Source of the DNA: Candidatus Baldrarchaeum yapensis
GTDB taxonomy: Archaea; Asgardarchaeota; Baldrarchaeia; Baldrarchaeales; Baldrarchaeaceae
Assembly (NCBI GenBank): GCA_016840465.1
Contig: JAEOSH010000021.1
Span: 1 to 29,909, forward strand
Length of the DNA stretch: 29,909 bases
Reading direction: 5' to 3'
Part shown: in pieces, positions 1,766 to 18,836 of the stretch
Position numbering within the stretch: the stretch's first letter is position 1
How the letters are laid out: every line of letters begins with the position of its first letter
Made by a program: the position numbers and the translations under genes
Notes under the pieces: generated by a model
Databases searched by the model: none
What the model saw: the letters and a program-made list of their open reading frames with translations, nothing else
Told to the model about the DNA's origin: nothing

Positions 1766-2404
1766 TCATGCCCTTTTCAGCAACTCTATCGCGAGAATTC
1801 TTCCATTCTTTACAAGTAATCTTGGAACACGATCCTCAATCGTATGGACACCATCAGAGAAAGATGCAGTTCCCTTAACTCTCAACTCGGTGATTATTCT
1901 TCCCTTCATTTCGGATTTCTCTTCTCCGACAAGAAATGCTTGATCTCTTAGAATCACAATATCATGTTTATAATGAGACGGAAGAGTAGCGCCCATCAAT
2001 TCTTCAAGTATCATCTTTAACTCATCTGTTCTGGTGGTTGGCGTCTTTTCCACCGGTTGAGATGTAACTGTGGTAGATGGCCGTGCAACTTCCCGCTCTA
2101 CGGCCTTTCCGGGAATGATCGCAGGAGCCCCAACTTTTTTTAACGCCTCTTTAAAATCATCGGTTTCAGAACCCTCATCCATAACAACGATTTTATAAGA
2201 TGGTCCGTATTTAACCTTTAGATTTCTTGCCGATTGCGCGCTAATGAATTTCCTCCTTACCGAGGAGTTAGAACCTTTCCATACGTATATTGTACGGCCA
2301 TCTTCATCCACAACTATGAAAACGTCGCTTGACGAAAATTCCAGTTGGTGCGGTAACAACTCACTCAACGTGCCGTCATCATTCACCCGGTAGATTAGTA
2401 CCAC
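1766..2404 (-). CDS. Gelsolin-like domain protein
   Basis: A 212-residue cytosolic protein with no signal peptide or membrane segment. Residues about 25-90 resemble a gelsolin/villin-type repeat: SSDVFIVVDEDGRTIYVWKG, then a basic helix SVRRKFISAQSARNLK, then YKIVVMDEGSET. A Pro/Thr-rich linker (about 93-127) leads to a C-terminal domain of about 80 residues that I do not recognise. The start is GTG at 2404, preceded by a gggtgg ribosome-binding stretch. It is first in a two-gene operon with the Sfm1-type methyltransferase. Actin-severing function should not be assumed, since single gelsolin-like domains occur in archaea without a demonstrated partner. The domain call is fairly sure and the role unknown. 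Confidence 0.68.
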   Translation of the reverse strand: MVLIYRVNDDGTLSELLPHQLEFSSSDVFIVVDEDGRTIYVWKGSNSSVRRKFISAQSARNLKVKYGPSYKIVVMDEGSETDDFKEALKKVGAPAIIPGKAVEREVARPSTTVTSQPVEKTPTTRTDELKMILEELMGATLPSHYKHDIVILRDQAFLVGEEKSEMKGRIITELRVKGTASFSDGVHTIEDRVPRLLVKNGRILAIELLKRA

Positions 2405-3489: not shown

Positions 3490-3927
3490 ATGGAGCAGGT
3501 GGGTAGTGTAAAGGGGAGAATAGAGGAAGAGATCGAGAAAGTGATGAAGAAATTTGCTTTTCTCGAAGGAGTTGCAGTAATTTCGATGGAAGGGTTTTTG
3601 ATAGCGTGCAAATTACCGCAAAATGTAGATGGCGACCTGATAGCGGCATCCACAGCGGCGGTTCAAAACATATGTGAGAAGATAGGAATCGATGTGGGTA
3701 AGGGCGGTACAAGGGCGGCAATCTTGGAGTATGAGGGTGGTTACGTCATAACATCAAGCCTAGGAGAAAATTTCCTACTGACAACAATCGTTGGAAACGT
3801 CGCTGGGCTGAAACTCGGCATGGTCTTCCTAGCACTTGACCAGTTGAAAAAGGCAATAGGTCCCCTACTTGGAAAGATAGAGGAATTCGTAATACCGATG
3901 GGAACTGGCGAAATAGTTACGGAGTAA
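3490..3927 (+). CDS. Roadblock/LC7 domain protein
   Basis: A 145-residue cytosolic protein of the roadblock/LC7 (MglB-like) fold, which typically acts as a dimeric scaffold or regulator of small GTPases. Recognisable parts are the N-terminal helix, the strand FLEGVAVISMEGFLIACKLP (about 27-46), an ASTAAVQNICEKIG helix, the strand pair around AAILEYEGGYVITSSLG, and a closing helix LKLGMVFLALDQLKKAIGPL. The ATG start is supported by ggtgat 7 nt upstream. It is monocistronic, and its last 11 bases overlap the convergent alpha/beta hydrolase gene. No small Ras-like GTPase is encoded in the window, so a partner cannot be named. Confidence 0.8.
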   Translation: MEQVGSVKGRIEEEIEKVMKKFAFLEGVAVISMEGFLIACKLPQNVDGDLIAASTAAVQNICEKIGIDVGKGGTRAAILEYEGGYVITSSLGENFLLTTIVGNVAGLKLGMVFLALDQLKKAIGPLLGKIEEFVIPMGTGEIVTE

Positions 3928-15841: not shown

Positions 15842-16407
15842 TCTCTCCAATGGACTTTTTAAACCATCAACAGCAACGTCGGGCATTGAAATACCCATAC
15901 ATCAAGTTTTTTAACAAGACATGCACGAAATCTTATTGTGGAAGTACGGAGATGGTACTTTTGAGTAGTAATAATCCTGCCACTGACAAAATGTATCATG
16001 TCAGATGCAAAGTATGCGGATGGGAAGGATACACATGGTTACGTGGTTACATCAATGGCGGGTTGCTCTACATAGAGTGTCAAAAGTGCGGCTCAAGAAG
16101 TCTCTTCGTCTCCCCGCCCGTGCCCTCTCACGAAATAGTAATAGGGACATCCGTATTCGACGAACTGATGAAAACGTTTACAGCAGTCTTCACAACCATT
16201 ATGGGAGGATTAACTACTATCACAAGACACATCCGTTTAGGAACGCTCACCACATCCCGCCTCATAAGAACATTAGCAATCGGTGCAACCAGTTTTGCGA
16301 TATTTTTCGTGTTAAGCATGCTTTTCCTGCAAAATGATGTTTTCATGCAGATAATAATCGGAACTCTGGGAGGTGTGGCTGCATCCATCTTCTCTCAAAA
16401 TAGATGA
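15838..16407 (+). CDS. Zinc-ribbon membrane protein, unknown function
   Basis: A 189-residue protein that I do not recognise as a named family. The cytosolic N-terminal part has three cysteine pairs: CTKSYC (about 30-35), CKVCGWEG (about 58-65) and CQKCGSRSLF (about 82-91), consistent with one or two zinc ribbons. The C-terminal part has two hydrophobic segments, about residues 140-162 (RTLAIGATSFAIFFVLSMLF) and 169-184 (MQIIIGTLGGVAASIF), preceded by a basic stretch that suggests the N-terminus stays inside. Its ATG overlaps the Trm112-like stop (ATGA), so the two are translationally coupled, which makes a functional link likely. Confidence 0.72.
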   Translation: MISPMDFLNHQQQRRALKYPYIKFFNKTCTKSYCGSTEMVLLSSNNPATDKMYHVRCKVCGWEGYTWLRGYINGGLLYIECQKCGSRSLFVSPPVPSHEIVIGTSVFDELMKTFTAVFTTIMGGLTTITRHIRLGTLTTSRLIRTLAIGATSFAIFFVLSMLFLQNDVFMQIIIGTLGGVAASIFSQNR

Positions 16408-16432
16408 CACGTCACTAATGGATGGATGCAAA

Positions 16433-16819
16433 ATGGCGGATGAATTCTCAAAATATCGGGTAAAATTTGAATTCGAAAGTGGATACTCCGTCGAGGGCAT
16501 CCTCGATAGACTGAAATCTCCAATTACCGTCAACAATCTCGTAAATAAGTTGCCAATAATCGAGAGAATCGCGCCATGGCCCCCCTCAGACCCTGTTGGA
16601 ATATGCTTTAAAGCAAACCTCGGCCTAGGACGTGAAAAGGTGGTACGCAACGTTCAGTCTGGGGACATAGGATATTGGCCCTTAGGAGATTCTATATGCC
16701 TATTTTTCAAGGACTCCCAGTTAAGATATGACATAAACCCGCTCGGAAGGATAACAAAGGGCATAGAATATTTAACCCAACTTAAGAGAGGAGAAAAGGT
16801 AGTATTCTCACTTATATGA
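16433..16819 (+). CDS. Cyclophilin-like fold protein
   Basis: A 128-residue protein resembling the small bacterial/archaeal cyclophilin-like family (TM1367-type, PF04126). Support comes from the closing segment GYWPLGDSICLFF, then NPLGRITKGIEYLTQL and GEKVVFSLI, and from the VGICFKANLGLG strand pair. The classical proline-isomerase catalytic set of eukaryotic cyclophilins is not evident, so isomerase activity is not claimed. ATG 16433 gives the natural start MADEFSKYRVKF; ATG 16418 would add five residues. It is the last gene of the FrhB-like operon, 25 nt after the zinc-ribbon membrane protein, and converges with the winged-helix gene. Confidence 0.65.
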   Translation: MADEFSKYRVKFEFESGYSVEGILDRLKSPITVNNLVNKLPIIERIAPWPPSDPVGICFKANLGLGREKVVRNVQSGDIGYWPLGDSICLFFKDSQLRYDINPLGRITKGIEYLTQLKRGEKVVFSLI

Positions 16820-16833
16820 TACCTACTCGGGAA

Positions 16834-17349
16834 TTATCGTTTCTTGTTTACATTAACCGGAATCTCAATAGCGGGGAGCACAATCAGAGCATCCCCTGAT
16901 GCTTCTATTATTAATCCGTCGCCACTCGAATTTATCCGTGTTATTCTCCCATTTATAGGCACGACCTTAATCTTATTGGAGTACTTCAATCCCCTAATGG
17001 CGCTTTCTGCGCTTGAAAGTACTCGCTCTCTAAGAACATCCTCTAACATCCTCTGGACCTTAACGTACTCCCTCTCCAGAACCTCCCTGCGCCTGCGCTC
17101 CTCCTCTAGCTCTTTCCGCATTTCTAAAACTTCCTTTGAACTCTTAATATCGGTCGACCAGAAAACCCGCCATCCCTTCTTCTCTCTTCTCACCCTTATT
17201 AGGCCCGCCACCCTTAAAACAGTCACAACATCGTATATTCTCCTTCTCGGGATGTTTAACCTCTCAACTAATTCGTTTATTAGGAAGCCTTTACCAGAAT
17301 TGCTCGAAAGGAAGTTTATAACCTTTTCTGCAACCTGATCTAGCCGCAA
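16834..17349 (-). CDS. E2F/DP-like winged-helix transcription factor
   Basis: A 171-residue predicted DNA-binding regulator. Residues 1-65 form a winged helix whose recognition helix RRRIYDVVTVLRVAGLI (35-51) matches the eukaryotic E2F/DP signature, where the RR-x-YD residues contact the TTSSCGC-type site. The wing follows as REKKGWRVFW. Residues about 68-115 are a strongly charged coiled coil (KELEEERRRREVLEREY), suggesting dimerisation. Residues about 122-168 are beta-rich (IKVVPINGRITRI, GLIIEASGDALIVLP). The order winged helix, coiled coil, beta domain mirrors E2F (DNA-binding, coiled coil, marked box). The start is TTG 17349, six bases after ggaggag; GTG 17364 is the outer option. Targets are unknown. 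Confidence 0.72.
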   Translation of the reverse strand: MRLDQVAEKVINFLSSNSGKGFLINELVERLNIPRRRIYDVVTVLRVAGLIRVRREKKGWRVFWSTDIKSSKEVLEMRKELEEERRRREVLEREYVKVQRMLEDVLRERVLSSAESAIRGLKYSNKIKVVPINGRITRINSSGDGLIIEASGDALIVLPAIEIPVNVNKKR

Positions 17350-17465
17350 GAGTTTCTCCTCCACTCGGTAATACCAAATATGACCCTGATACCCTCAACA
17401 TCTAAATTGACCGCTGTTGGAATAATAAACTCGATATTACCCTTATTAATGTTTGCGTTCTTCAT
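17340..17465 (-). CDS. Possible small protein upstream of the E2F-like gene
   Basis: A 41-residue ORF starting ATG 17465 (MKNANINKGNIEFIIP) and ending at TAG 17340, overlapping the first ten bases of the winged-helix gene in another frame. A TATA-like ttaaataaa lies at about 17505-17513, which would give a leader of roughly 18 nt containing gaaggg, so the ORF is the first thing in the predicted transcript. It reads as a short beta-rich peptide with no known family. It could be a small protein, a leader peptide coupling translation of the regulator, or chance. Confidence 0.35.
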   Translation of the reverse strand: MKNANINKGNIEFIIPTAVNLDVEGIRVIFGITEWRRNSCG

Positions 17466-17504
17466 TTCTCGGAAAACCCTTCAATAACAGGATAAATCTT
17501 GGAC

Positions 17505-17513
17505 AGTTTATTT
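17505..17513 (-). promoter_or_regulatory. Probable TATA box for the E2F-like gene/small ORF
   Basis: Read on the minus strand this is ttaaataaa. The nearest downstream start is the 41-residue ORF at 17465 and then the winged-helix gene. It also lies just beyond the YkgJ-family gene's 3' end. Confidence 0.35.
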
Positions 17514-17530
17514 AACACTCCAAGCTAAAA

Positions 17531-18148
17531 TTAGGGAGACTCCTTCAAACAGTTACTAATCTTCGATTCGTTCACTAGTACCTCCACCTCATGCGCCGAT
17601 TCCAGCAAATACCTCAAGAACGCTAGAGGAGTAGGCTTAAAAAGTCCTCGTTTTGCAAACCTGTTCCAAATACGAACTATATGTACGTACTCCCTCAATT
17701 CTCGCAACATCTGCAATCCGAGTTGTACAAACTCCTCCTCCGAAATCTCCCTACCCACGCCCAAACCTCCGCAATATTCGCGAGCCCTTGCTGCAACCCC
17801 CTGCCATAACCAGCCATCTTTAAGTTCGAAGGTAAATGGAAAAACACGACACGCCATTGGACGAGCATTATATATCAGGCATTTATTATCTTCCGATAAG
17901 AAGATGCACTCACCACCCTTAAGCTTAAGAATTCCAAGATAATAAAGTCCACCAGTAGTTACCACCGGTGGGGTTCTCATCCGCCGCATGTACTTCTTTT
18001 CGATCTTGTAAAATGCGACTAGATCGAGCAACTCCTCTGGGCCATATCCAAGATAATCGGCAATTCTCTTAAGATCACGGTGCGTGATCGTCACTATTAA
18101 ATTTCTGTCGCGGCAACACTTCCCACACATGAGACAAGTAAATCTCAT
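17531..18148 (-). CDS. YkgJ-family cysteine-cluster protein
   Basis: A 205-residue protein of the YkgJ (CxxCxxCC, PF03692) family, thought to bind zinc or an iron-sulfur cluster. The N-terminal FTCLMCGKCCRD has the CxxCxxCC arrangement. Further conserved blocks are GECIFLSEDNKCLIYNARPMACRVFPF (about 79-105) and a late AREYCGG cysteine. No catalytic function is established for the family. A C-terminal helical extension (about 145-205) is unrecognised. It lies 22 nt downstream of the TBP gene on the same strand with gagaggac before its ATG, so it is probably transcribed from the TBP promoter. Confidence 0.82.
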   Translation of the reverse strand: MRFTCLMCGKCCRDRNLIVTITHRDLKRIADYLGYGPEELLDLVAFYKIEKKYMRRMRTPPVVTTGGLYYLGILKLKGGECIFLSEDNKCLIYNARPMACRVFPFTFELKDGWLWQGVAARAREYCGGLGVGREISEEEFVQLGLQMLRELREYVHIVRIWNRFAKRGLFKPTPLAFLRYLLESAHEVEVLVNESKISNCLKESP

Positions 18149-18170: not shown

Positions 18171-18746
18171 TTAAGTCTCCGCAGAGGAGGGTTTCCCGAC
18201 TAGCCCGAGTTCGACCAGTTGCTTTGCTAACTTCTCAACAGCAGATTTCACGTCTTCCTCTCTTTTCGCTCCTGTGCACACGATTTTTCCACTACTGAAT
18301 AGAAGAAAGACAACATTTGGGTCCTTCATCCTGTATATCAGCCCAGGGAACTGCTCGGGCTCGTAAAGAGCATCCTCCAGGGTCATAGCCGCCATTTCGA
18401 GATCTATCTCAGCACCTATACTCCCGGAAGAAACAATGTTCTGTATCTGTATCTTGGGCTCGCCTTCTATCTGTATCCCGGCTTTGCGCAACTTCTCTAT
18501 AACCTTGTTAACGACGATCTTCGCATGCTCCTCCCGCTTCAGTCCTGTGACAACCATCTTCCCGGTATTAAACACCAAAACTGCAGCCTTTGGATTCTGC
18601 AAACGTATTACGAGGCCCGGAAACTGCTCCGGGTCGTACTCAACATTTGGAAGTACACTCGCAACCCTCTCAAGGTCTATTCTGCAATCCAGCACCACGC
18701 TCGCGACTATGTTCTCCACACGATATGTCGGCTTCAGTTCGATCAC
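18171..18746 (-). CDS. tbp: TATA-box-binding protein (TBP)
   Basis: General transcription factor that binds TATA boxes and recruits TFB and RNA polymerase. Its 191 residues show the two direct repeats of the saddle: NIVASVVLDCRIDLERVASVL with YDPEQFPGLVIRLQNPKAAVLVF and KMVVTGLKREE, then NIVSSGSIGAEIDLEMAAMTL with YEPEQFPGLIYRMKDPNVVFLLF and KIVCTGAKREED. There is no acidic C-terminal tail. I start at GTG 18746, seven bases after a perfect ggagg. An ORF start at 18809 would run through the gene's own TATA box. It is divergent from mfnD across a spacer with two palindromic TATA elements, and the YkgJ-family gene follows. Confidence 0.96.
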   Translation of the reverse strand: MIELKPTYRVENIVASVVLDCRIDLERVASVLPNVEYDPEQFPGLVIRLQNPKAAVLVFNTGKMVVTGLKREEHAKIVVNKVIEKLRKAGIQIEGEPKIQIQNIVSSGSIGAEIDLEMAAMTLEDALYEPEQFPGLIYRMKDPNVVFLLFSSGKIVCTGAKREEDVKSAVEKLAKQLVELGLVGKPSSAET

Positions 18747-18780
18747 GGTAACGCCTCCCTCTTTGGACCTTACACAAAGA

Positions 18781-18790
18781 TATTTAAATA
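18781..18790. promoter_or_regulatory. Palindromic TATA element, probably for tbp (minus strand)
   Basis: The decamer tatttaaata is a perfect palindrome centred about 40 nt before GTG 18746. A start site near 18760 leaves a short leader beginning just ahead of ggagg. It abuts a second palindromic TATA element on the mfnD side. Confidence 0.6.
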
Positions 18791-18802
18791 CCTTTATAAA
18801 GG
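18791..18802. promoter_or_regulatory. Palindromic TATA element, probably for mfnD operon (plus strand)
   Basis: The dodecamer cctttataaagg is a perfect palindrome centred about 40 nt before ATG 18837. Because it is symmetric and touches the other element, TBP could bind either in both orientations, so the assignment of each box to one gene is inferred from spacing. Confidence 0.6.
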
Positions 18803-18836
18803 TTCTCACAGGTGATCACGCGTCGCGAGAGTCGGG

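Follow-up and report, generated by a model that had tools for sequence, protein, structure and literature searches.

E2F/DP controls S-phase entry in animals and plants, and Asgard archaea are the microbes closest to eukaryotes. The locus described here, in Candidatus Baldrarchaeum yapensis, raises the question of whether a small archaeal protein can be a genuine relative of these regulators, how much of their build it shares and which promoters it might act on. Throughout, the window is the whole stretch of 29,909 nucleotides that was analysed. The gene and its parts lie as follows.

16834 to 17349, minus strand: E2F/DP-like transcription factor gene (translation; PF02319 at 32.9 bits; start aligned with homologues)
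17158 to 17343, minus strand: winged-helix DNA-binding domain, residues 8-69 of the 176-aa frame (PF02319 over residues 8-59; AlphaFold2)
17230 to 17244, minus strand: RRxYD motif (R41 R42 I43 Y44 D45) at the start of the recognition helix (39 of 39 homologues)
16993 to 17148, minus strand: single long helix, residues 73-124, a likely dimerising coiled coil (AlphaFold2)
16873 to 16971, minus strand: C-terminal four-strand beta domain, residues 132-164 (AlphaFold2; conservation in the family)
17365 to 17530, minus strand: intergenic promoter region of the E2F-like gene

The open frame begins with a GTG at 17364, 15 nt before a TTG at 17349, and the product has 176 aa from the former and 171 aa from the latter. 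Nearly all homologues have their M-K/R-L start at the position of this TTG, which is also the limit of 17349 given in the earlier note; the strand, left out there, is minus. The frame described in that note, the peptide RRRIYDVVTVLRVAGLI, the long charged helix and the beta-rich tail are all present. An opposite-strand ORF (16844-17338, plus strand) was considered as a gene and dropped, as it merely overlaps the conserved E2F-like gene.

We found that E2F_TDP (PF02319) is the best family match of the protein and the only one over its cut-off (32.9 bits, E 5.5e-8, cut-off 25.7), and that it matches all 39 aligned family members. With this score, a single match in its own genome (2.27 Mb) and none in 14 control genomes, the match stands far above chance. 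Furthermore, R41, R42, Y44 and D45 of the RRxYD motif are invariant in all 39 homologues, very divergent members included, which upholds the close resemblance to the E2F/DP signature first noticed in the recognition helix. In the E2F4-DP2 structure, this motif contacts the GC core of the site.

Searches against the PDB lead to the same family. The profile of the 39 homologues retrieved E2F8 (2.8e-9), E2F4 (2.5e-5) and, weakly, DP2 (0.064) and no other winged helix, the remaining match being one designed protein (E 0.15), while E2F8 was also the best chain in a single-sequence search. When the family winged helix was compared by hhalign with the single sequences of E2F4 and E2F8, the probabilities were 95 and 97%. 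Fold searches returned generic winged helices without preference for E2F, the matches listed included neither an E2F nor a DP chain, and the C-terminal part was barely covered; since all winged helices look alike, the fold comparison has no discriminating value. Judged by its sequence, the core of the protein is a true relative of the E2F/DP regulators, and the kinship that had been proposed for the winged helix holds.

The rest of the protein is known to us through structure prediction. The AlphaFold2 predictions for the window protein and a Baldr homologue (mean pLDDT 87.4 and 82.5, respectively) both place one long helix after the winged helix, 52 residues long in the window protein, followed by four beta strands. 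In the window protein, the winged helix (H8-21, H29-36, H40-52, E56-61, E64-69) has a pLDDT mostly of 94-97, the helix 73-124 reaches about 93-98 over most of its length, and the strands (132-137, 141-147, 150-155 and 159-164) lie at about 73-91. The pTM is low in both cases (0.48 and 0.45), and the models leave the relative placement of the domains undefined. The E2F domain order claimed for this protein is real in the two predicted models. The "strong coiled coil" of the earlier note survives as a long helix predicted with high confidence, a wording that we have softened since the heptad periodicity of the window sequence alone was not above that of shuffles (fraction 0.26).

The sequence of the four-strand domain is conserved across the family and across Asgard classes, even in members without the helix, such as the Heimdall proteins of about 120 aa, which keep the beta domain and have no long helix. 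Families f5 and f10 share the winged helix and carry a different C-terminal region; together with the Heimdall members, they identify the winged helix as the constant part. In a second class, seen in the Asgard PF02319 proteins L009, L013, L014, L019-L022 and L027, three residues are inserted before KRRxYD, and the conserved C-terminal region is unrelated and has no Pfam match.

A tentative extension of the E2F/DP assignment, and one compatible with it, is that the helix and the beta domain are homologous to the coiled-coil and marked-box module of E2F/DP, the whole architecture being ancestral and archaeal. The same domain order, the similar size and the four short strands after the long helix in both models point in this direction, as does the broad conservation of the beta domain. 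On the other hand, the C-terminal region differs in some class-2 Asgard members, the Heimdall members do without the helix, and sequence comparisons gave no signal: Pfam E2F_CC-MB (PF16421) had no match in 29 genomes (a set without a positive control), the C-terminal profile found no E2F/DP chain in the PDB, and hhalign of the C-terminal domain against E2F1/4/5 and DP1 remained at shuffle level. For this comparison, human E2F1 and DP1 sequences served as queries to retrieve PDB chains, and the chains compared are those retrieved. However, the marked boxes of E2F and DP fail to find each other in a control hhalign (likewise no match, 0.15%), so the sequence test is without power. The reading of the beta domain as a marked box is neither supported nor refuted by these sequence comparisons, and we regard the homology as possible, although doubtful.

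The winged helix could also belong to an ordinary regulator of the TrmB, MarR or Rrf2 kind, with a recognition helix convergent with the E2F motif or like it by chance. TrmB comes close to being accepted, at 25.2 bits against a cut-off of 25.6 (0.4 under it), weak TrmB matches occur in 31 of the 39 members, and structure searches return generic winged helices. Nevertheless, E2F_TDP alone exceeds its cut-off and does so in company with a match in every member, the PDB profile search leads to E2F/DP winged helices only, RRxYD is retained across very divergent members, and the protein contains no effector domain of the TrmB or MarR type. Best matches to unrelated winged helices, which the earlier note had named as a refuting outcome, were not obtained, all three competitors being under their cut-offs, MarR (16.9 bits) and Rrf2 (18.2 bits) far below; we consider this reading unlikely. 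A divergent paralogue of TFE (TFIIE-alpha), in which an extended winged helix plus a helix would work with the basal machinery, is highly improbable: TFE-alpha ranks second in the single-sequence PDB search (E 0.0024), the TBP gene lies two genes upstream and 6 of the 39 members have weak TFIIE_alpha matches, but the window protein has neither such a match nor a zinc ribbon, the genome encodes a separate, clear TFE (87.3 bits), and the TBP linkage is confined to the window's order.

We then return to the E2F/DP-type assignment and to its distribution. The survey of archaeal homologues and their genomic context suggested in the earlier note found that 75 of the phylum's 227 genomes have PF02319 over the cut-off, almost always as a single copy, and that the 14 controls have none; the neighbours are constant across families. 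All the named relatives among 84,980 species genomes are Asgard (Baldr-, Hel-, Thor-, Heimdall- and Sifarchaeota and one labelled Odinarchaeota), besides two Thor-like records labelled no further than 'archaeon', the nearest to the window protein being in Baldrarchaeota-type genomes of the same order; viral contigs had no relative. One Baldr bin (G003, contamination 9%) has two copies, L031 and L036, of which one has the TBP, CxxCxxCC and cyclophilin-like neighbours described below and the other does not. As for the bearing on the origin of E2F/DP, a winged-helix tree that included E2F4, E2F8 and DP2 (70 columns) joined the eukaryotic proteins only at 77/74 and cannot place them.

That some Asgard genomes have E2F homologues has already been stated in a recent review, which notes their existence only (PMC7617429) and cites Spang 2015 and Zaremba-Niedzwiedzka 2017. 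The window protein is very probably one of these homologues, and mere presence in Asgard archaea is therefore not new. A literature search found no paper on the architecture of these homologues; what is new here is the conserved full-length build, the neighbourhood and the promoter sites, so that the findings are partly new overall.

Three genes surround the E2F-like gene in the window.

16373 to 16819, plus strand: cyclophilin-like gene (PF04126, 55.9 bits), tail-to-tail with the E2F-like gene, gap of 14 nt
17531 to 18148, minus strand: gene for a CxxCxxCC zinc- or iron-chelating protein (PF03692, 49.8 bits), directly upstream of the E2F-like gene
18171 to 18809, minus strand: TATA-binding protein (TBP) gene (PF00352, 210.8 bits), 22 nt before the CxxCxxCC gene

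The cyclophilin-like gene, whose start is probably internal, at MADEFSKY, as its homologues suggest, ends on the opposite strand, next to the E2F-like gene's own end, in the window, in Baldr, Hel (L033) and Sif genomes and in family f12. The same tail-to-tail arrangement is seen in nearly all Thor loci, with PF04126 homologues across L002-L075. The CxxCxxCC gene is directly upstream in the window, in Baldr genomes, in families f2 and f12 and in some Helarchaeota, while the full series of TBP, CxxCxxCC and E2F-like genes is found in the window and at L034, L035 and L036, all in the window's order. The persistence of neighbours across classes hints at a functional link, and as a lead it suggests a connection with general transcription or with a ligand- or protein-binding cyclophilin-like partner.

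Elsewhere in the window, we observed genes for a gelsolin-domain protein (1766-2404, minus strand) and a Roadblock/LC7 protein (3490-3927, plus strand), both typical eukaryote-like proteins of Asgard archaea. The two contig ends (1-270 and 29640-29909) are inverted copies, 86% identical over 270 nt, and fall in two paralogous thermosome subunit genes, which probably marks a point where the assembly stopped.

Sites of the E2F type are present in promoters of Heimdall and Baldr relatives. Of 12 non-Thor loci, 3 contain the eukaryotic E2F consensus core TTSSCGSSAA in the 230 bp preceding the gene, against a background of 1 in 783 windows taken from these loci, a count made after the sites had been spotted by eye and one in which the three loci represent two independent cases, since L047 and L055 (Heimdall) belong to one genus. 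The site reads TTGGCGCCAA at L031 and, at both Heimdall loci, TTGGCGGGAA inside TTTGGCGGGAAA; genome G022 has a single copy of the latter and G087 has two, and in each genome one copy is upstream of the E2F-like gene. The promoters of L034-L036 carry TTGGCGCC. In the window's own promoter we found no E2F consensus site; TTTTCCGA is present at 17469-17476 (minus strand) and is not significant in the window. Three Heimdall promoters (L042, L047 and L055) also have in common a palindrome of the GCGCGACA-TGTCGCGC type, about 270-290 bp upstream of the E2F-like gene and near the divergent neighbour gene.

Thorarchaeota have an element of their own, TCGNAAAATCG. Of 31 promoters, 19 contain it, compared with 1 of 1893 background windows, a contrast that is overstated because the element was defined from these promoters, which are related to one another and also serve a divergent CobW-type gene. 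The element usually lies 25-40 bp ahead of the TATA box and is sometimes doubled. A scan of six Thor genomes gave 40 matches to TCGNAAAATCG against 9 for the reversed pattern. These matches, like those of TTTSSCGSSAAA in a scan of 22 genomes, fall mostly inside genes and outline no replication or cell-cycle gene set and no clear regulon; the TTTSSCGSSAAA counts were not clearly different between genomes with and without an E2F-like gene. In a single case, L099 (Thor genome G197), one intergenic TCGNAAAATCG is located 85 bp upstream of an actin-like gene.

Considering all the above results, we believe that the gene probably encodes an archaeal E2F/DP-type transcription factor, putatively homodimeric and self-regulating. 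Such a homodimer would form through the long helix and the beta domain; consequently, two RRxYD helices could recognise a GC-centred and roughly palindromic site in the way that E2F and DP do jointly. The protein would bind just upstream of the TATA box and may regulate its own promoter, along with what is probably a small set of others. Its most likely role is that of a homodimeric, sequence-specific regulator acting near the TATA box on its own gene. Going further, a complete one-gene, homodimeric and autoregulating E2F system, with a DNA-binding domain, a coiled coil and a dimer domain like the marked box and with E2F-type sites as its targets, may have existed in Asgard archaea before there were eukaryotes, eukaryotic E2F and DP arising from it by duplication, a scenario that we regard as rather improbable. 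Should the archaeal homologues, as homodimers, bind the DNA sites that E2F/DP binds, the half of the switch that recognises DNA would be older than eukaryotes, and a protein of only some 175 residues would allow its ancestral job to be studied. Conserved neighbours and promoter elements offer direct experimental handles and make the function testable.

Among known systems, the canonical E2F-DP heterodimer, which binds TTTSSCGC-type DNA, comprises two different PF02319 subunits, whereas the window's genome has one PF02319 match. A search for an Rb-type pocket protein (PF01857) gave no match in this genome, but is uninformative, as it gave none in any control either. Because the search found no gene for a second subunit and sequence comparison does not identify the beta domain as a marked box, we do not class the protein as a canonical E2F-DP system. 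TrmB/MarR regulators have the same winged-helix fold, but the archaeal protein stays under their cut-offs and has no matching effector domain. Archaeal TFE-alpha likewise has a winged helix followed by a helix, and a TBP gene lies near the window gene, but the window protein has neither the family match nor the zinc ribbon, and TFE has its own gene. With DP1/DP2 the protein shares RRxYD, and the family profile detects DP2 weakly; it is, however, much shorter, without the long DP-type loop before the recognition helix, and its C-terminal part has no sequence match to DP1. Compared with E2F (E2F4, 1CF7; E2F8, 4YO2; PF02319), the archaeal protein, at about 175 aa, is too small to include a long transactivation or Rb-binding tail, is the product of the only PF02319 gene of its genome, and has a C-terminal domain that is not recognisable as a marked box. 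What it does share with E2F is the RRxYD winged helix, followed by a helix and a beta domain in the same order, and the family match makes it one of the PF02319 winged-helix proteins.
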